Below are positions 1 to 9,336 of a DNA stretch of 64,000 bases, in pieces. Below the pieces are notes generated by a model that saw only the letters and a program-made list of their open reading frames with translations, was not told where the DNA came from and ran no database searches. The stretch covers positions 1 to 64,000 of the forward strand of contig JAADGH010000081.1 in assembly GCA_013152475.1 (NCBI GenBank). Reading direction: 5' to 3'. The translations under genes were made by a program, and so were the position numbers. This stretch comes from Planctomycetota bacterium. Its GTDB lineage: Bacteria; Planctomycetota; Brocadiia; JAADGH01. How positions within the stretch are numbered: position 1 is the first letter of the stretch; the number at the start of each line of letters is the position of its first letter.

Positions 1-1153
1 CCCGTCAAGGATCGTGGGCGGGCCGGTGCTGGTGTGCATGGCTGATGTGAAGCCAGAGCCGATTCGATGGCTATGGCCGGGCCGTATCGCCTTGGGTAAG
101 CCGACGTTGTTTGTGGGCGATCCAGGAACCGGGAAAAGCTGTGTAACGCTGGATATGGCCGCTTGCGTGTCGAGGGGCCGCCCGTGGCCGGATGGAAGCG
201 AACCGAGCGAGAGGGGGTCGGTTATCTTGCTGTCGGCAGAGGACAGTCCCGGTGACACGATCCGCCCCCGGCTTGACGCCGCCGGAGCGGACGTGTCGCA
301 AATTTACATCTTAGAGTCAGTCATGGAACGCAATGACAGGGGGGAAATAGTAAGACGGATGTTTTGCCTTCAGGCGGACGTGGCGCAGCTTGACGGCGCC
401 ATAAAGCGAGTGAGCGATGTTGGTCTTGTGGTAGTGGACCCGATTTCGGCGTATTTGGCTGGCGTGGATTCGCACAGCAATACGGACGTTCGGGGTGTGC
501 TGGCCCCGTTGTCTGACTTGGCCGCTCGACACAGGATAGCGTTGGTCGCCGTGTCACACTTCAATAAGGCCACAGGCACGAGCGCCATCTATCGAGCAAT
601 GGGGAGCTTGGCGTTCACTGCGGCGGCAAGGGCCGTATGGTGTGCAAGTCGGGACAAAGACAATCCAGATCGTCGGCTTTTCTTGCCGATCAAGAACAAC
701 ATTGGCAAGGATGTATCCGGGCTTGCTTACTCCCTTGAGTCAACGCCCGATAACCCGGACGTGCCTGTTGTCGTTTGGGAGCCGGACCCGGTAACGATCA
801 CGGCAGAAGAGGCGCTGCGGGATCAATCAGAGGGAAAGCAAGGGGACAGTCCCATCGAGGACGCGGAAGAATGGCTTCGGGATGCTCTGGGCGATGGTCC
901 GCTACCGTCCAAGGATGTGCTACGTATGGCGAGGGAGAATGGACACAGTGAGCGGACGCTTCGCCGGGCCAAGAAAGCACTGGGAATCACGGTGAGCAAG
1001 GAGGGCTTTGAGGCAGGATCAACATGGTATTGGAGCTTGCCGGGGGACGAAGATTGCCAAAAACGCGAAGATGGCCACACTCCGGACGTGGCAACCTTCG
1101 GGGAAAGTGGCAACCTTCGGAATAGGAGTAAGTGGGAGCAGGGGACGATATGA
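1..1153 (+). CDS. RepA-like AAA/RecA-fold ATPase (5' end outside window)
   Basis: A RecA-fold ATPase of the AAA_25/RepA helicase type, the kind that drives replication of plasmids and integrated elements. The Walker A motif GDPGTGKS follows the family-typical lead-in RWLWPGRI. A Walker B-like LVVVDPIS and the segment around SHFNKATG come later. The last 100 residues look like a winged-helix region (KDVLRMAREN, SERTLRRAKK). The frame stays open to base 2 and the family usually starts further upstream, often after a primase/polymerase domain. The GTG at 14 is therefore probably internal and the gene partial. Its stop overlaps the next start (ATGA). Confidence 0.8.
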   Translation, partial: PSRIVGGPVLVCMADVKPEPIRWLWPGRIALGKPTLFVGDPGTGKSCVTLDMAACVSRGRPWPDGSEPSERGSVILLSAEDSPGDTIRPRLDAAGADVSQIYILESVMERNDRGEIVRRMFCLQADVAQLDGAIKRVSDVGLVVVDPISAYLAGVDSHSNTDVRGVLAPLSDLAARHRIALVAVSHFNKATGTSAIYRAMGSLAFTAAARAVWCASRDKDNPDRRLFLPIKNNIGKDVSGLAYSLESTPDNPDVPVVVWEPDPVTITAEEALRDQSEGKQGDSPIEDAEEWLRDALGDGPLPSKDVLRMARENGHSERTLRRAKKALGITVSKEGFEAGSTWYWSLPGDEDCQKREDGHTPDVATFGESGNLRNRSKWEQGTI

Positions 1154-1503
1154 GCGATAATGCCTTGGGATTCTTGAACAGCCTTGCCGCCGTGGGCGTG
1201 GTCCTGACACGGGCCGACGATCAACTGCGGTTTGATGCGCCCAAGGGGGTGATGACCCCGAAGCTACGGGCGCAAATCAAGGCATATAAGGCCGCGCTGC
1301 TCGATGCTCTGAAATCCCCCGATCTCCCGCCCGATCTGCTCTATCTGTGGGAAGAACGCATGACGATATGCCTGATAGACGGCGGGATAGGTTATGGGGA
1401 GGCCCTCCAGGCCGCTTGGAAGCAGATAGACGGCATGTGCAAGGACCAAAGGAGCGGGGCCGTGGGCGGTGTCTTGCCCTCGGTTCCCACAGCAACGGCG
1501 TAG
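1150..1503 (+). CDS. Small TubC-N-like docking-domain protein
   Basis: A 117-aa protein starting at an ATG that overlaps the previous stop (ATGA), with GGAG about 13 bp upstream. An ATG at 1132 is in frame but lies inside the preceding gene without its own ribosome site. The N-terminal half (LAAVGVVLTRADDQLRFDAP, then KLRAQIKAYKAALL) matches the short TubC-N docking-type domain, which is common in phage and plasmid replication clusters and often sits next to primase or RepA genes. The C-terminal half is unrecognised. The role is unknown; the position suggests an accessory to the ATPase. Confidence 0.65.
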   Translation: MSDNALGFLNSLAAVGVVLTRADDQLRFDAPKGVMTPKLRAQIKAYKAALLDALKSPDLPPDLLYLWEERMTICLIDGGIGYGEALQAAWKQIDGMCKDQRSGAVGGVLPSVPTATA

Positions 1504-1514
1504 GAGGACACAGC

Positions 1515-2117
1515 ATGACACAGACAGTGGATGACCTAATCCTGGCCCCTGAATTCCAGGCTATGATCCCGCCGTATCCGAAAGGCGACGACGAGCGTCT
1601 TGAGGCGCAGGTACTACGAGAGCGGCGCTGTCCTGCGCCCGTGAAGTACTGGAAAGACACCAACATCGTGCTCTGCGGCCATCGAGAACTGCGGTACTGC
1701 ATGAAACACCAAGTCCCCATTGACCTGGTTGTTCTGAAAGTTCAGCCACCAACACGAGAAGTGGCGAAGGAGTACTTCATCCGCAAGCAGCTTGAACGTG
1801 ATGACTTGACAATGTTTCAGGCGGCGGAGCTTGGGGTTCACCTTTGGGGGTTGATTTCATCAAGAGCGAAGGACCGTCAACGTAAGGCCGGAGGCGCGGA
1901 GCCGCAACGTTCATCGGAACCGCCACTCCACGCGAGAAAGGAAGCCGCCGAAGTTGCAGGAGTCAGCGAACAGACCTTGGACCGAGTGAAGCGAATCCTC
2001 GGAAGCGGTGACGATCAGGTCATAGAGCTGTTGCGGCACAGTGAGATCAGCATCAATCGAGCCTATCAAGCGTTGCGCGAGGGGAAGGAAGAAGCGAATG
2101 AAGGCGATGGTGAATAA
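1515..2117 (+). CDS. ParB-like N-terminal-domain protein
   Basis: A 200-aa protein. The ATG at 1515 is chosen because TAGGAGG lies about 8 bp upstream; an in-frame start at 1347 would overlap the preceding gene by more than 150 bp. Residues near CGHRELRYC and IDLVVLKVQPP resemble the ParB/Srx N-terminal fold, here with the pattern 'describe item, then choose alternatives' seen in phage and plasmid ParB-like proteins. The segment HARKEAAEVAGVSEQTLDRV looks like the central helix-turn-helix of KorB/ParB-type proteins. It probably acts in partition or regulation of the element. No parA is visible. Confidence 0.6.
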   Translation: MTQTVDDLILAPEFQAMIPPYPKGDDERLEAQVLRERRCPAPVKYWKDTNIVLCGHRELRYCMKHQVPIDLVVLKVQPPTREVAKEYFIRKQLERDDLTMFQAAELGVHLWGLISSRAKDRQRKAGGAEPQRSSEPPLHARKEAAEVAGVSEQTLDRVKRILGSGDDQVIELLRHSEISINRAYQALREGKEEANEGDGE

Positions 2118-2425
2118 GCGTTTGGGGTGCTGTGTACCGGTCTTGATGAGAAAGCCCGGTATTTGGGGGTTCAGGGAAGTGTCATTTTGGGTACTGGCCT
2201 CCCCCTACGCCGGTCGCGTTTCCGGGGGGTTTTCTCGCTTTTCGCTGGCCTATGGGAGATTTTGCAAAGCCTTTGGAGAGAGAGCGTTGCGCGTATTCTG
2301 TGAAAATGGATAGCAAAAAAGGTGTGCGAAATACTTGACAGATTTGGGGCTTTTGGAGGGCATCGGGTGATGAACACAAGGCGCGGTCTTGATGATTTCG
2401 GCAGGGCCGATGGTGGGCAAAAGCC
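2118..2425 (+). other. Gap without a convincing gene
   Basis: About 300 bp between the ParB-like gene and the first Cys-rich gene. One open frame on each strand crosses it, but their composition is poor and they lack a ribosome site. A TTGACA at 2335-2340 has no matching -10 at 16-18 bp. I see no repeat array or iteron. Confidence 0.4.
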
Positions 2426-2686
2426 ATGAGAGAGGAAGCGTGGAGATGTACGCATTCTCGCTGCCATCACCGCACTCGGCACCGGGTGGACCCATGGATT
2501 TGTTGCGATGATTGCCGGAGGAAATACTGCGAGGACCGAGACCCAGGCGCGCCATGTGGACGTAACGGGTGGGATTGCGGACACCGAACTGTCCGTGATG
2601 GGATTTTCCTCATGGAGTTTGAGCAAAGCGGGAAAAAACGCCGCCAAGAAAGGGACAAGAATGAGGCAGATGCGCAGACGAAGTGA
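2426..2686 (+). CDS. Small Cys-rich protein, possible zinc binder
   Basis: An 86-aa protein unlike anything I can name. The first 50 residues hold nine cysteines and several histidines in close pairs (CTHSRC, CCDDC, CEDRDPGAPC, DCGH), which suggests one or two zinc sites. The tail is basic and charged. No strong Shine-Dalgarno precedes the ATG. It overlaps the next small gene by 26 bp. It lies between element genes, so it may be an accessory regulator. Real but uncertain; the cysteine spacing is the main argument for coding. Confidence 0.45.
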   Translation: MREEAWRCTHSRCHHRTRHRVDPWICCDDCRRKYCEDRDPGAPCGRNGWDCGHRTVRDGIFLMEFEQSGKKRRQERDKNEADAQTK

Positions 2687-2897
2687 GGAGAAAGACCGTG
2701 AGTGCATATTCCTTGGCTGCGAGCGGATGTTCTGGAGCAGTTGGCCGGGTGAGCGTGTCTGCCCGCAATGCCGCAAGCTCTTTGAGATAGCCCGGCCAAG
2801 GTATGGGGAAATCGGGAAATCAGCGAAAGCGCCCGAGACTGGACTTGATCCTGAACTGGCTGAGTTTGCTGAACGGCTTTTGGAAATGAGGAAGTGA
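2661..2897 (+). CDS. Small zinc-ribbon protein
   Basis: A 78-aa protein starting at ATG 2661. A longer in-frame start at 2508 would run through the neighbouring frame without adding recognisable sequence. CIFLGCERMF, then GERVCPQCRKL is a two-knuckle zinc ribbon, of a type common as small single-domain proteins in phages and integrated elements. The C-terminus is acidic. The stop codon overlaps the GTG start of the excisionase-like gene (GTGA), so the two are likely translated together. The function is not known; nucleic-acid binding is a reasonable guess. Confidence 0.6.
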   Translation: MRQMRRRSEEKDRECIFLGCERMFWSSWPGERVCPQCRKLFEIARPRYGEIGKSAKAPETGLDPELAEFAERLLEMRK

Positions 2898-3190
2898 AAG
2901 ACGAACCGGAATCCTTTGTTGATGTGGCGACCGTGGCGGGGTTCCTGTCGATCTCCGAGCGGAGCGTCAGGCGGCTGTACTCTGAACGGAAGGGGGAGGT
3001 GTTGCCACACTACAGAATCGGCGGACAGGTCCGCTTCCGCATGGATGAAGTAGTCGCCGCTTGGAGTGATCGACAGAAGGGCACTCCACGCCAACGCGGG
3101 CGACCCACGAAACGCCTTGACTCCGGTAGGCGGCCGGCGTATCATCTTGCTGACTCCTTAACCGGAGCCGCCCCCTCGGAAGGAGGATAA
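2894..3190 (+). CDS. Excisionase-like helix-turn-helix protein
   Basis: A 98-aa protein with a MerR/Xis-type DNA-binding domain in its first 60 residues. VATVAGFLSISERSVRRLYS is the helix-turn-helix and HYRIGGQVRFRMDEVVAAW is the typical wing plus closing helix of helix-turn-helix domain 17 proteins. The GTG start overlaps the previous stop, and the gene ends 2 bp before the integrase start. This xis-int order is what an excisionase would show. The Pro/Arg-rich tail is unrelated to the fold. It may equally be a repressor-like DNA-binding protein. Confidence 0.75.
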   Translation: MKDEPESFVDVATVAGFLSISERSVRRLYSERKGEVLPHYRIGGQVRFRMDEVVAAWSDRQKGTPRQRGRPTKRLDSGRRPAYHLADSLTGAAPSEGG

Positions 3191-3191
3191 A

Positions 3192-4298
3192 ATGGCAGGG
3201 GTATTTCAACGCGGCTCCAGATGGGGCATTACCTACAAGGACTTCAGTCAGACAGGTCGGCGGGGTAAGCCGGGAAAGTGGGTCCGGCGAATGGTCGCCG
3301 ACACCGAGGATGAAGCCCGGATCGTTCTCGCGGAGATTCAGCATCGGCAGGCTCGCGGTGAGTACGGCATCCTGGACAACGAAATGATGTTTGACGACAT
3401 CGCGGCGGGGTTTATGGATTGGTATGAGATGCAGGTGAAGCCGAGCACCTTCAGGCGAGCTAAGACGTTGCTCAAGAATCTGGAACACGTCTTTACTGAG
3501 CGGATGGTGAGCACGCTGAGCTTGCGAGATGCGCAGGATCATTGCCGCCGCCGTCTCGCACAAGGAACCACTCGGCGGACCTGTAACATGGAGTTACTGC
3601 TGTTGAAGCAGATTCTCGACTACGGTGCGCGGAGCAAGCTTATCGCCTGTAACCCACTCGCCGACGCGAAGCCGCTTCCCGACAAGGATGAGAAGGAACG
3701 GCGCATCTTGGAGCCGGAGGAGATAGACAAGATCATACAGCACGCCACCGAACCCATGAGGCCTTTTTTTCTGTTGCTGGCCAGAACCGGCATGAGAAAG
3801 TCTGAGGCAAGCGGGTTGCTCTGGAGTGAGGTTGATCTCAATTCCGGCAAGATTCGGCTCTCCGGCACGCGCACCAAGAACGGGCGGAGCCGTGAGATTC
3901 CACTGAGCGATGCTCTCCGGCTGGAGTTGTTGAGGTTGCGCCTCACAAATCGCCAATCGAAATGTGTCTTCGTGACGGCGCACGGCACCCAACGGAAGCA
4001 CAACGTGTATCGTCAGCTACAGGGAACGGCGAAGCGGGCGGGTGTAAGCACAGACGGCCTCATGCTTCACAGCTTCAGGCACTCGTTTGCAACACACGCA
4101 GCACGGGCCGGGGTGAATCCCAAGACACTACAGATGATCCTTGGGCACGCCGACGTAGGAACTACGCTCAAGTACTACGTGAAGATGAATTTCGCAGACA
4201 TGAAGGAAGCGGTAGATCGACTCATGGAGTGGGGCGAGGAGCGTCTTACGAATGCCTCACATAACGGCGAGGAGCCGTCGCAAGAAGCGGTAGGATAA
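3192..4298 (+). CDS. Tyrosine-type site-specific integrase
   Basis: A 368-aa phage-type integrase. The N-terminal 60 residues are an AP2-like arm-binding region (GSRWGITYKDFS). A core-binding SAM-like domain spans about 65-160 and the catalytic domain about 165-350. Catalytic residues visible are Arg in ARTGMRKSEA (about 203), the beta-hairpin Lys in RTKNGRSREIP, the HSFRHSFATH box (about 292-301), LGHADVGTT, and the nucleophilic Tyr in TLKYYV (about 328). AAGGAGGAT lies just upstream of the ATG. It is the last gene of the element and faces the tRNA-Arg half-gene, its probable target. Confidence 0.95.
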   Translation: MAGVFQRGSRWGITYKDFSQTGRRGKPGKWVRRMVADTEDEARIVLAEIQHRQARGEYGILDNEMMFDDIAAGFMDWYEMQVKPSTFRRAKTLLKNLEHVFTERMVSTLSLRDAQDHCRRRLAQGTTRRTCNMELLLLKQILDYGARSKLIACNPLADAKPLPDKDEKERRILEPEEIDKIIQHATEPMRPFFLLLARTGMRKSEASGLLWSEVDLNSGKIRLSGTRTKNGRSREIPLSDALRLELLRLRLTNRQSKCVFVTAHGTQRKHNVYRQLQGTAKRAGVSTDGLMLHSFRHSFATHAARAGVNPKTLQMILGHADVGTTLKYYVKMNFADMKEAVDRLMEWGEERLTNASHNGEEPSQEAVG

Positions 4299-4491: not shown

Positions 4492-7400
4492 TCACTCTGC
4501 CGCACACACCACACGGAAGCCCACGTTATACACCGGATGGTAAGCCGGGTAGCGCCAGCGGAAGGCCGACGTGGCATACGCGAACTTGTCGTTCCACGAG
4601 CCGCCGCGAATGACTTTCATGCCGGTCGCCTTGGGATTATCCCGCCCGTCGGAGGGAATGTAAGGGTAGGGCTTGTAAACACTTAAGCACCATTCCGCCA
4701 CGTTGCCGTGCATGTCGTACAGCCCCCAGGCGTTTGGCTTGTACTTCCCGCCCGGGATCGAGAAGCGCGCGCCGTCCTGGTAGCCCTGCTCCACGCGGCC
4801 CCAGTTCCACCGGCGGAGCGATTCGTCGGACAGGTTGGCCACGTCGCGCATCCCCGGCTTGATCTTGCCGAAGTAGAAGGGCGTCGCCGTCCCGGCGCGG
4901 CAGGCGTACTCCCACTGGGCCTCGGTGGGGAGCGTGCAGCGCGTGCCGGTCTTCTTCGACAGCCACCGGCAGAAGGCCATGGCCTCGTTCCACGACACGC
5001 GGATCACCGGCTGCTTCGGCTCGTTCACCGGATACCCGCGCGTGAAGCGGTCCTTGCCACGCGCGTCCATGTAGCCGCTGTCGTGTGCGGCGTCGAACAG
5101 GGCGTACTGCTCGTTGGTCACCTCCATCTCGCTGAGCCAGAAGGGCCTGTCGATGGTCACCACCGACTGTGGCTGCTCGTCTGGCCACGAGCCGTCACCG
5201 CCCATGACGAACTTGCCGGCGGGGATGGGAACCAGCTTCATCGCAATGCCGCTGCCAAGGTCGAGCGCCTTCGGCTTCAGGCCGCACGTCTGCTGCCGCC
5301 TGGCCGCCTCCTTCGCATCGAAGGGCCAGCCGTCCACTTTCGCCGGCGCTTTTGGCTGCTCGCGCATCTTCGCGGGCTTCGTGAATTTGGCGGGGGAAGG
5401 CATGGCGAGGGGTTTCTCGTCCTCGTCCACGATGCTGGCGAAGAGCATTTTATACTTTGCCCGGCGCTCGACCTGGTCTTTGGTGGGCAGACGAGTGCTG
5501 TCGCGCCATCGCGGGGCGTAGGGGATGTTGAGGTCGATCCATGTGGTGATGCGGTCCCATTCCTCGGCGGTCAGTTGGACGTTGTGGTGTCCCTTCTTTA
5601 ACCTCTGCACCAACGGGCTGGTGTCGGCCTCCCATTCGGCGGGAGCGGGCAGGTGGTAGTCGGCCTCGTATCCCGCTCGACGCACATAGGGATGGAGGGC
5701 CATGTAGGAGGCGCTGAATACGCCTTGGTACGTGCCCTTGTCATCGCCGCGCACCTGCTTCGACCGGAAGTCGGGGATCGTCTTCCCATCCTTTCGGGGT
5801 TTGCCGTTGTGGCAGCCGACGCAGCGCCGGTCGAGGACGGGTTGAATCTCTTGCTCGAATCCGAACCCGCGGGTAGGCCCATGCCAGGGCTTGATCTCGG
5901 AGACGGGATGCCGCATGGCCAACGTGTCGGCGTTCGGTGTGCCGATGTTCTGTTTTTCATGGCAGCCGACGCACGAGAGGTACTCGCCCGGCATGGCCAC
6001 GAACCAGCTCCGCATCTGCTGCTGCGCCTTGCCCTCGGCATCGAGGGGCTGGACGATGATCGGCGTGTTGGCCGGCACACGGAAGTAGGCCGAGCCGTCC
6101 TCGTAGACCGGCACCGTGCCCATAATTTTTTTGACGTCCCAGCCGCCTTCGTACGAGGCCCCGATCGGGCTGCCGCCGTGCCCCGAGTAGCGGAAGTGGG
6201 TGGAGGAAACGCGCAGTGCCTTGATCGAACCCCGGGGATACCCCCGCAGCCCATTGCCCTGGTAAACGTCTACCAGATACACGAACGCGTCCTTGCGCTT
6301 CGGATCCACGCGGTCGGGAATGACCGGCGGCATCGGCCGTGGGCGCAGGGGGATGGCGTTGCTGTATCCGCCCATGAGGATCGGCGTCATGTTGTCAAAG
6401 ACGTCCACGAGGTAGAGTCCCCACGGCGACTGCGGTGTCATCCTGCACGTGACGAGGAAGTACTTCCCAGCCCCCGCGTTGGTTTCTGGATCGGCCAATG
6501 GCCACGGCGCGGCAAAGCGTGGCCACGACTCGCCGACCAGACCGTCCATGATAACCGGTTCGACCTTCTTCCCCCTGCCGGGGATGCGCTGGATGACACC
6601 GTTGGCCTCACGCTGCCCCTTGGCGGGGTCGAGGAGGACCAACTCGCCCATCCGGGGCACGCCATGGTGGCCCGAGACGATGCAGACGATCTCCGACGGG
6701 CTGCCGGGGATCGGGCGCGGCCAGTACATGGCGTTGGGCCAATAAGAGTTGCTGCCGTAGTACTCCATCTGCCCGCTGCCGTCGGGGTTCATGCGGAAGA
6801 GCAGGCGTGTGAAGTAGTGCGGCGTGTCGTTGTACTCCCATCGCGTGTAGAGTACGCGGCCGTCGTTCATCACCACCGGGTTCCAGTCGTGATCCTGGTC
6901 GAAGGTGAGGCGGCGTTCGTTCGCGCCGTTGTCATCCATGATGTGCATGTTGCCCACGTCCGGCGCGCCGGTGCATGGAACAGCCTGCTCGCAGGCGGTG
7001 GAGACGAATAGGATCTTGCCGTTCGGCAGGCGGCAGGGATCGTAGTGCTTGAAGGGGTTGCCCTTCGGCGAAATTTGCCGATGCCCCGAGCCGTCCGCGT
7101 TGATCTCCTGGATGTTCTTGCCGTCGCTGAAGAGGATTTTCTTCGCATCCCAGCTCAGGTCCATGCTGCTGATGTTGGCGGTCTTGTAGATCGTGGTCAC
7201 CTTGCCGTCGGGCTTCACCGGGGACAGCACCACAATCTCCCTGCCCAGCCGATTCGGCCCGCCCCAGTTGGACGCAAACCCGGGGCCGCCCTTGATGAGC
7301 AGGAGCTTGTCGAAGCCGAGCAGCGGGTTGGCCAGGAGGATGTCCTTCGACGCCGTGTCGAGCTCGTCCCGAAGGGCCAGCACGTCCTTCAGCGCCGCGT

Positions 7401-9294
7401 CCCCGTTGGCGATCACGTTGGACAGGAGCGCCTTGGCCTTGCCATCGAACGCTTTGATTCGCGCCAGGTACTCGTCCCCCTTCGGGTAACGGCTGCCGAA
7501 GGATTTCTTCTGGTCGGCCACGGCCAGCCGCATGGTCTCGGTCCGGTTCGCCTCCTTCAGCATTTCCTGAAGCGTAGCCACGGAATAGTAGGTGCGGCGG
7601 AGCTCACCGATATCCTCGCAGTCCTTGTATGCCTTGAATCGCTCCGCAGTGGCCGCGGCATGCTCCCCCTCCAGCTCTGCGAGCCGTTTCTCAATGGCCC
7701 CCTTGTACTGGTCCACGAGGAATACCGGGACGCCGGGGTTCCAGTCGGTCAGGAACTTCTCCTTTCGCGCCATCGACCGGCGCGCGAACTTGATCCAGAT
7801 GCTGTCGGCCTGTTCCCAGGTGATCTGCTGCACGCTCACCGGATCGGGGAAGTCGCGCTTGAGCTGACTGAAAAGCGCCTCCCGGCGGCGAATCCGTGTG
7901 CGCAGGTCGCCCGCGCCGGGGTTGTTGATCGGCGCCTGCGGACAGAACCAAAAAGATGGGGACTGACCCGCCGTTTGGTCTGTCCCCATTTTTTCGGAAG
8001 GGATGTGCAGCCGCGCCAGGACCTGATAGTTCCCCGGCTTGATCTGGAGTTCCCACGATATTTGATTGGGGACGACCTCCTTGAGCTCGCGCGGCGGCCA
8101 GAGGGTGCGATACCGCGGCAATATCTTTATCCACGCGGAGGCGAAGCCGATGCCGATGGTGTAGGGGTGCCGCCGGTCGAACTCGGCGGTGACCTTCATC
8201 GACCGGCAGAGGAACACCACCGAGTCCGGAAAGATGGGGACTGACCTGCCGTCCGGTCTGTCCCCGTTTTTCCGGGGAGCGAAGGCTTTCACAAGGTCGA
8301 TCATTGTCCCGTCTTCCAGGTCCTTGCGTTCCTGCCAGGTGAGCGGCTTCCCGTCTTTCGTCTTGTATTGCTTCTTGAGATCGACGGTCTTCTGGCGCTC
8401 GATTTCACGGGCCACCGGATCCCCCCGGTTTATCGGTCCAAGGGCATACCACGAACCGAACTGCATCGCCGAGTCAGGCGCGGCGAGCTTGTCCTGCATG
8501 CATTCCCATTCGAGGATCGCCTCCCGCGCGGCGACCATGGTCTCCTGCCAGGTGGCCTTCTTCTCGTAGGCGGGTTTCTTCGGGGCCTCCCGGATGGCCT
8601 TACGCCGCTCGATCTCCTCCTTGGAGAGGACGAGCACGTCGTCCTTTGCGCCGAGCACCTCGATCTCGATCACGGCCGTGGCGCTCGCCGCCGTGTTGCC
8701 AGCCTTCGCGGGCGTGCCGGCCTTGACGTTGTAGGTCCGCCAGATTCGGAACTGCACCCAGTCGGCCTTGCCGGGGAAAAGCTCCCCGCCGTCCTTCGCC
8801 ACGAAGTAGCTGTGGAACCCGCCGCCGTTCTTGCCGATGACCTTGTCTCCGCTGGTCAGGTCTGGTTTCTTCTTGAACGTGGGCAATTTGCCGGGATTCG
8901 CGCTGTTGTTGGCGAAGCGCACCTCGTAGTCCTGGTTTGCCCGGGCATCGAGGTTGCAGGTAAACAGGCCGACTTGGGTGATCGTCTTCGGCTCACCGAG
9001 GTAGAAGCTGAAGACCGAGGGTGTGCCGTTGACAAAGGCCCGGCCCTCGTGGCACCGCACACCCGCTGCGCCGTCGAACATGAGGCGGATGGCGCCGGCG
9101 CTGATATCCTTGTTCTCGCCGATGGCGACGCCGCGCCGGGCGAGCAGGTTGCGCCGGTTCATCGACTCGATGCGCTGGGTGAGCTGGGCGAAGGCTTCGT
9201 CGGTGTTCGCCCAGCTTTCGGTCTTCATCTCCACGTCCACGGCGAGGGCGGAGGTGCAGAGCACGAGGAGGAGGGGGAGGGCCAGCTTCTTCAT
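4492..9294 (-). CDS. Secreted c-type cytochrome, HzsA-like, with SUMF1 C-terminus
   Basis: A 1600-aa exported protein. The ATG at 9294 is chosen because it starts a clean signal peptide (MKKLALPLLLVLCTSALA) with GGAG 9 bp upstream; in-frame codons extend 288 bp further but through the divergent promoter region. Residues about 730-1150 resemble the propeller/middle domain of hydrazine synthase alpha-like proteins (RRLTFDQDHDWNP, INADGSGHRQIS) and end in two heme-binding CVGCH motifs (about 1106 and 1156). From about 1350 to the end is a SUMF1/formylglycine-enzyme-like domain (LPTEAQWEYACR, GNVAEWC, RGGSWND, NVGFRVVCAAE). The catalytic cysteine pair of true formylglycine enzyme is absent. Two palindromes are inserted in frame near residues 341 and 433. 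The function is probably periplasmic redox or surface-linked, not hydrazine synthesis. Confidence 0.9.
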   Translation of the reverse strand: MKKLALPLLLVLCTSALAVDVEMKTESWANTDEAFAQLTQRIESMNRRNLLARRGVAIGENKDISAGAIRLMFDGAAGVRCHEGRAFVNGTPSVFSFYLGEPKTITQVGLFTCNLDARANQDYEVRFANNSANPGKLPTFKKKPDLTSGDKVIGKNGGGFHSYFVAKDGGELFPGKADWVQFRIWRTYNVKAGTPAKAGNTAASATAVIEIEVLGAKDDVLVLSKEEIERRKAIREAPKKPAYEKKATWQETMVAAREAILEWECMQDKLAAPDSAMQFGSWYALGPINRGDPVAREIERQKTVDLKKQYKTKDGKPLTWQERKDLEDGTMIDLVKAFAPRKNGDRPDGRSVPIFPDSVVFLCRSMKVTAEFDRRHPYTIGIGFASAWIKILPRYRTLWPPRELKEVVPNQISWELQIKPGNYQVLARLHIPSEKMGTDQTAGQSPSFWFCPQAPINNPGAGDLRTRIRRREALFSQLKRDFPDPVSVQQITWEQADSIWIKFARRSMARKEKFLTDWNPGVPVFLVDQYKGAIEKRLAELEGEHAAATAERFKAYKDCEDIGELRRTYYSVATLQEMLKEANRTETMRLAVADQKKSFGSRYPKGDEYLARIKAFDGKAKALLSNVIANGDAALKDVLALRDELDTASKDILLANPLLGFDKLLLIKGGPGFASNWGGPNRLGREIVVLSPVKPDGKVTTIYKTANISSMDLSWDAKKILFSDGKNIQEINADGSGHRQISPKGNPFKHYDPCRLPNGKILFVSTACEQAVPCTGAPDVGNMHIMDDNGANERRLTFDQDHDWNPVVMNDGRVLYTRWEYNDTPHYFTRLLFRMNPDGSGQMEYYGSNSYWPNAMYWPRPIPGSPSEIVCIVSGHHGVPRMGELVLLDPAKGQREANGVIQRIPGRGKKVEPVIMDGLVGESWPRFAAPWPLADPETNAGAGKYFLVTCRMTPQSPWGLYLVDVFDNMTPILMGGYSNAIPLRPRPMPPVIPDRVDPKRKDAFVYLVDVYQGNGLRGYPRGSIKALRVSSTHFRYSGHGGSPIGASYEGGWDVKKIMGTVPVYEDGSAYFRVPANTPIIVQPLDAEGKAQQQMRSWFVAMPGEYLSCVGCHEKQNIGTPNADTLAMRHPVSEIKPWHGPTRGFGFEQEIQPVLDRRCVGCHNGKPRKDGKTIPDFRSKQVRGDDKGTYQGVFSASYMALHPYVRRAGYEADYHLPAPAEWEADTSPLVQRLKKGHHNVQLTAEEWDRITTWIDLNIPYAPRWRDSTRLPTKDQVERRAKYKMLFASIVDEDEKPLAMPSPAKFTKPAKMREQPKAPAKVDGWPFDAKEAARRQQTCGLKPKALDLGSGIAMKLVPIPAGKFVMGGDGSWPDEQPQSVVTIDRPFWLSEMEVTNEQYALFDAAHDSGYMDARGKDRFTRGYPVNEPKQPVIRVSWNEAMAFCRWLSKKTGTRCTLPTEAQWEYACRAGTATPFYFGKIKPGMRDVANLSDESLRRWNWGRVEQGYQDGARFSIPGGKYKPNAWGLYDMHGNVAEWCLSVYKPYPYIPSDGRDNPKATGMKVIRGGSWNDKFAYATSAFRWRYPAYHPVYNVGFRVVCAAE
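7950..7995. repeat. REP-like palindrome inside a gene, copy 1
   Basis: Inverted repeat with arms 7950-7968 and 7976-7995, each carrying the core GGGGACWGACC flanked by an A-run or T-run. It sits in frame in the cytochrome/SUMF1 gene and codes for part of a short insert (near MGTDQTAGQS). Confidence 0.75.
8228..8273. repeat. REP-like palindrome inside a gene, copy 2
   Basis: Inverted repeat with arms 8228-8246 and 8255-8273, same GGGGACWGACC core as the copy 260 bp away and about 85% alike in the arms. It is also in frame and codes for a different peptide (near NGDRPDGRSVPIF) because it is read in another phase of the repeat. Confidence 0.75.
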
Positions 9295-9336
9295 TTCCGT
9301 CTCCTGCGAGCACAACGTATCATACTCTCTATCGGA

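Follow-up and report, generated by a model that had tools for sequence, protein, structure and literature searches.

Two palindromes within one gene

Two palindromes of ~44–46 bp lie within a single gene of the window (the whole stretch of 64,000 nucleotides analyzed here) and leave its reading frame unbroken, which raises the question of what these sequences are and how they became part of a protein. The host gene (4492..9297, minus strand) encodes 1601 aa. Copy 1 occupies 7952..7997 (minus strand, sense sequence GAAAAAATGGGGACAGACC-AAACGGCG-GGTCAGTCCCCATCTTTTT) and encodes approximately residues 434–449 (SEKMGTDQTAGQSPSF); copy 2 occupies 8230..8275 (minus strand, GGAAAAACGGGGACAGACC-GGACGGCA-GGTCAGTCCCCATCTTTCC) and encodes approximately residues 342–356 (RKNGDRPDGRSVPIF). 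Their 30-bp cores (7958..7987 and 8236..8265) each consist of GGGGACWGACC arms with an 8-nt loop, both copies are matched by our covariance model R1 (E=1.3e-10 and E=1.9e-11, respectively), and they are 89% identical to each other. A preliminary description of this DNA had reported two in-frame palindromes with this core and had located their peptides correctly; its spacing of 260 bp was approximate, the measured distance being 278 bp start to start with a gap of 232 bp. GGGGACWGACC occurs four times in the window against an expectation of 0.11, and none of the shuffled sequences reached this count. Both palindromes fold into hairpins as DNA (z -5.0 and -2.8) and as RNA (z -4.4 and -3.1). Since the two copies are translated in different frames, the resulting peptides share their DNA, not their sequence.

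The host protein has an apparent signal peptide at its N-terminus, judged by eye, and carries an HZS_alpha-middle-like domain (aa 1023–1114) and an FGE-sulfatase domain (aa 1354–1597), both downstream of the two insertions and in the same frame. Residues 1023–1114 match PF18582, the model of the hydrazine synthase alpha middle domain, and the protein scores far under the NCBIfam cut-off for hydrazine synthase alpha; judged from its sequence, this region is a related domain and not evidence of a hydrazine synthase. A structural model of aa 241–545, itself of low confidence (pLDDT 59), predicts that each peptide forms a coil between strands, also with low confidence, so that their position in loops is suggestive only. 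By eye, an integrative-element-like segment with an ATPase/RepA-like gene, a ParB-like gene and a tyrosine recombinase spans positions 14–4298 of the window and stops just downstream of the 3′ end of the host gene.

The palindromes belong to a dispersed family

We searched the contigs of the genome from which the window derives (6.5 Mb, 250 contigs, 95% complete, 6.9% contamination) with sequence patterns and the covariance model R1. Eighteen well-matching copies were found on many contigs, with best-strand E values of about 1e-12 to 1e-6, and weaker variants were seen at C2 and C72; a reversed-pattern control gave a lower count than the true pattern. The alignment of 17 copies yields the consensus G-A4-6-Y-GGGGACWGACC-N8-GGTCWGTCCCC-R-T4-6-C of about 44 bp, and almost all of the aligned copies have GGGGACAG in one arm or both. 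All copies are single, the closest being the two in the window gene. Five likely intergenic copies, at C38, C106, C163, C241 and C249, are joined by shared sequence, which at C38, C106, C249 and C163 runs well past the palindrome; therefore not all copies represent independent insertions. One arm pair (12–43) switches between T-A and C-G, and covariation of the arms as a whole did not exceed that of shuffles.

The same family was not found in 147 genomes of relatives and 392 genomes of the phylum, a few of which contain palindromes of the same architecture and different sequence. Searches of viral contigs and plasmids gave no matches to the element. The genome of the window also holds another family of palindromes, which has GGGGAC ends (GGGGACACGAAGTCG...TTGGTTCATGTCCCC), copies at C72:401, C72:1471 and C178:4888, an additional model match at C72:2532 and a spacing of about 1.06 kb on C72. 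Separately, near-identical stretches CAGAGATGGCCTGACGGGGACAGACCGRCAACGGAARAGCGGGAAGC-RTR-GCTTCCCGC at C128:10772 (minus strand) and C140:86740 (plus strand) hold a half-site together with a different hairpin.

Copies inside genes keep the reading frame

Repeats of this form had been described beforehand as normally intergenic, a generalization that fails for this family: 10 of the 18 copies lie inside coding-like ORFs, and all ten are in frame. Two genes are doubly decorated, namely the window gene and the gene of a beta-helix protein at C6. Single in-frame copies occur at C37, C128 and C147 and in the genes of an aldose-epimerase-like protein (C91), a family-2 glycosidase (C172) and a cyclase-like protein (C212). 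The C2 variant, which stands outside the homology comparison below, is likewise in frame within a coding-like ORF of 511 codons. As far as they can be annotated, the hosts are hydrolase-like, epimerase-like or unknown proteins, with no core genes among them.

The A-form of the element is stop-free in all three frames, and the ten in-gene copies use these frames in a ratio of 7/3/0. Seven read as KMGTDRTxGxSPF-type and three as KNGDRPDxRSVPIF-type peptides; the third frame is never used though open, the chance of which is about 0.017 for ten copies. The encoded peptides contain many G, D, R, S, T and P residues, a composition that loops tolerate. This pattern fits neutral survival of the in-gene copies, and we infer that the peptides themselves are selectively neutral.

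Homologues lack the encoded peptides

That the peptides interrupt an otherwise family-like sequence, as first noted from the sequence, is borne out by four homologues of the window protein lacking both of them, one of which is a 51%-identical paralogue encoded at C75 in the same genome. No homologue was seen to carry the peptides without the palindrome. Relative to these homologues, the window protein has a net gain of +9 residues at copy 1 and +14 at copy 2. For the other eight in-gene copies the peptide is also missing from homologues or paralogues, with net gains of about +2 to +16 residues: ~+8 and ~+15 for the two copies at C6, +12 at C91, +10 at C147, +8 at C212, ~+6 each at C128 and C172, and ~+2 at C37. 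At C37, C128 and C172 the support for an insertion is weak, as loop lengths vary among the homologues; for C128 and C172 one homologue each equals the decorated protein in length, and the homologue search for C128 returned paralogues from its own genome only. At C91 and C212, alignment to PDB structures was weak in the region of the insertion site.

Most of these net gains fall below the length of the element (44 bp, or 14.7 codons). The shortfall may reflect the loss of a few host residues during insertion or later, loops that already differed, or uncertain boundaries. Since no pair of strains with an empty site was found, no single insertion event is dated.

The ends of the element resemble those of TIRYT transposases

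TIRYTs are described as RAYT-like transposases that are flanked by terminal inverted repeats (TIRs) instead of REPs, and some of their TIRs share the motif GGGGWSAS and form dispersed families (Di Nocera et al. 2013, PMC3733652). The arms of our element start with GGGGACAG and fit this motif as given there. The genome yielded seven Y1_Tnp matches, two of which, in genes of 249–286 aa, have no GGGGAC-type TIRs alongside; two others are of the TIRYT type, with the TIRs GGGGACAGTATATT (C118) and ATCAGGGACAGACGGTA (C213), and C227 holds a degraded third TIRYT with GGGGACACCATA-like ends. The TIR at C213 is the nearest end to the element arm in this genome, although not an exact one. A TIRYT or RAYT with exact GGGGACWGACC ends was not found in the 95%-complete assembly, and of all element half-sites listed in it none flanks a Y1 gene. 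At C100:51600-52256, a Y1 transposase gene adjoins tandem copies of GGTAGAAGCGGCATCTTGCCGCTTCC...GAGGCTGGAAGCCTCTTCTAC, a different repeat that thus lies beside its own transposase.

Across the phylum, the motif [AG]GGGAC lies upstream at a roughly fixed distance in 19 of 29 TIRYT-homologue loci, compared with 4.5% of control stretches. The TIRYT of the relative G135 has the TIR GGGGACAGACCACATATTTT, whose start GGGGACAGACC (GGGGACAGACCACATATT) equals the element arm in 11 of 11 bases. In the relative G039, a TIRYT has one GGGGACAG end and one GGGGACTG end, a pair that mirrors the A/T asymmetry of many element copies in the genome of the window. The clearest parallel is the relative G345, which encodes a TIRYT with the TIR GGGGACAGTCACCGAT and contains 42 solo palindromes, of which almost all carry this TIR as their arms. 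By ORF and GC heuristics, essentially all of the 25 palindromes examined among these 42 appear to be intergenic. A rough Fisher test of the in-gene share against the 10 of 18 copies here gives p 2e-5, a value that is indicative only as it compares different genomes by heuristic calls. The G345 copies look intergenic, so a large share of copies within genes characterizes this family or lineage and not TIR palindromes generally.

Origin of the element

The simplest reading of these sequences would be that fused TIR pairs were mobilized in trans. The ~44-bp element would then represent two TIRYT-type TIRs fused head to head without a transposase; a RAYT/TIRYT-like Y1 (HUH) single-strand transposase probably recognized the hairpin and inserted it in trans, and in-gene copies would survive where the frame is kept and the ~15-residue hydrophilic peptide falls into a tolerant loop. 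Overall we consider it likely that the element is a TIRYT-type non-autonomous palindrome that was inserted by such an enzyme and is tolerated in gene loops. Against this explanation count the lack of an exact-ended TIRYT and of an empty-site pair, the short net gains, the weak support at C37, C128 and C172 and the arm covariation not beyond shuffles. A Y1 gene bounded by GAAAAAYGGGGACWGACC would support mobilization in trans, and a DDE gene at such a place would favor a MITE instead.

Such a MITE, derived from a DDE-type insertion sequence with GGGGAC ends and unrelated to Y1 transposases, would be compatible with the near-perfect inverted repeat and with the failure to find an exactly matching Y1 element. 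We regard it as improbable, as ends of the GGGGAC type recur in consistent positions around the TIRYT genes of the phylum, the solo palindromes of G345 have the arms of their own TIRYT, and visual inspection of the listed copies showed no obvious target-site duplication. Somewhat less improbable, though still unlikely, are classical REPs of the GTAG or CGTC type that are moved by a resident RAYT. The preliminary description had favored a REP-like nature and a RAYT gene, and it was right insofar as the hairpins are small and dispersed and the genome does contain Y1_Tnp genes, including the two without adjacent GGGGAC-type TIRs. The comparison with REPs breaks down at their hallmarks: a GTAG or CGTC foot is not conserved in the 17 aligned copies, where CGTC-like bases occur in the loop only, and the about 18 copies are singles that form no head-to-head or tail-to-tail dimers or clusters. 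Moreover, no RAYT or TIRYT with exactly matching ends was found in the assembly, no copy lies beside a Y1 gene and the arms instead fit the TIRYT TIR motif.

The strong RNA folding, the order of A-tract, hairpin and T-tract with a T-rich 3′ side, which resembles a bidirectional terminator, and the position of intergenic copies near gene ends could also speak for functional RNA hairpins (attenuators or bidirectional terminators) that are kept in genes for regulation. Yet a terminator scan called neither window copy, the copies sit at variable positions in unrelated genes, with two of them 278 bp apart in one gene, and every in-gene copy preserves the downstream frame, which makes a regulatory role very improbable. 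Hardly any weight remains for ordinary lineage-specific loop insertions in which the palindromes are alike by coincidence or through an artefact of assembly. The insertions do locate to variable loops and the 250-contig assembly is contaminated, but near-identical 44-bp palindromes recur at 18 loci, the reversed-pattern control was lower and ten of the copies lie where the proteins have residues that their homologues lack. Taken for the entire family, coincidence is refuted by the covariance-model matches together with the homologue alignments.

Beyond the preferred origin from fused TIRYT-type TIRs, we tentatively consider, with more doubt than confidence, that arms open in three frames might make the element unusually well tolerated in coding DNA, so that in this lineage insertion into genes would be one of its chief means of spreading and would repeatedly supply new protein loops, independently of Rickettsia.

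Comparison with known intragenic repeats

With the TIRtron/TIRYT TIR families (PMC3733652) the element shares GGGGWSAS-fitting arms, its occurrence as solo dispersed repeats and a genome and phylum in which Y1/HUH transposases bear such TIRs. It differs in that over half of the good copies lie in genes, in frame, and in that it flanks no exactly matching TIRYT gene in its own assembly. The survey of intragenic repeats in PMC3733652 deals with GTAG and CGTC repeats, and we found no intragenic TIR-type repeats described there. The intragenic GTAG/CGTC REPs that it reports come from Opitutus terrae, Thauera and Xanthomonas, and some genes carry two of them. These are alike in being REP-class hairpins that decorate proteins, whereas our element is without a GTAG/CGTC tag and occurs as single units; its hosts are mostly large hydrolase-like or unknown proteins, compared with the repair genes given for intragenic REPs (PMC3733652).

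The palindromic elements of Rickettsia and Wolbachia (RPE/WPE) are in-frame palindromes in unrelated genes that encode peptides in exposed loops (Ogata et al. 2000, via PMC3767692), sometimes with two per gene; as described in PMC3767692, RPEs measure 100–150 bp and occur in AT-rich intracellular Rickettsiales. The family described here resembles them in decorating many unrelated coding genes in frame (10 of 18 copies), and it is set apart from those descriptions by its length of ~44 bp, a GC-rich planctomycete-like genome and a plausible transposase family. Enterobacterial MITEs of the RU/ERIC type, which have been found intragenically (103–168 bp, PMC2759123), are also small mobile sequences that add reading frame to genes; they differ in length, sequence and organisms.

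In-frame palindromic insertion is a rare, documented way for mobile DNA to add segments to proteins. The suggestion made at the outset that such insertions create new protein segments had already appeared in print for the RPEs of Rickettsia and for intragenic REPs; intragenic palindromes as such are established from Rickettsia and Opitutus. What appears to be new is the combination of TIRYT-type ends on an intragenic family, a majority of copies inside genes and a planctomycete-like host, a placement that rests on homologues and relatives. We know of no enzyme responsible for the Rickettsia elements. In the present case the ends match those of a transposase family that can be defined, and the proteins with insertions can be set against homologues that have none, including a paralogue from the same genome; this makes the mechanism, as well as the peptides' cost, testable outside Rickettsia. 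The G345 family, which is larger and whose transposase is still present, is a good comparison system.
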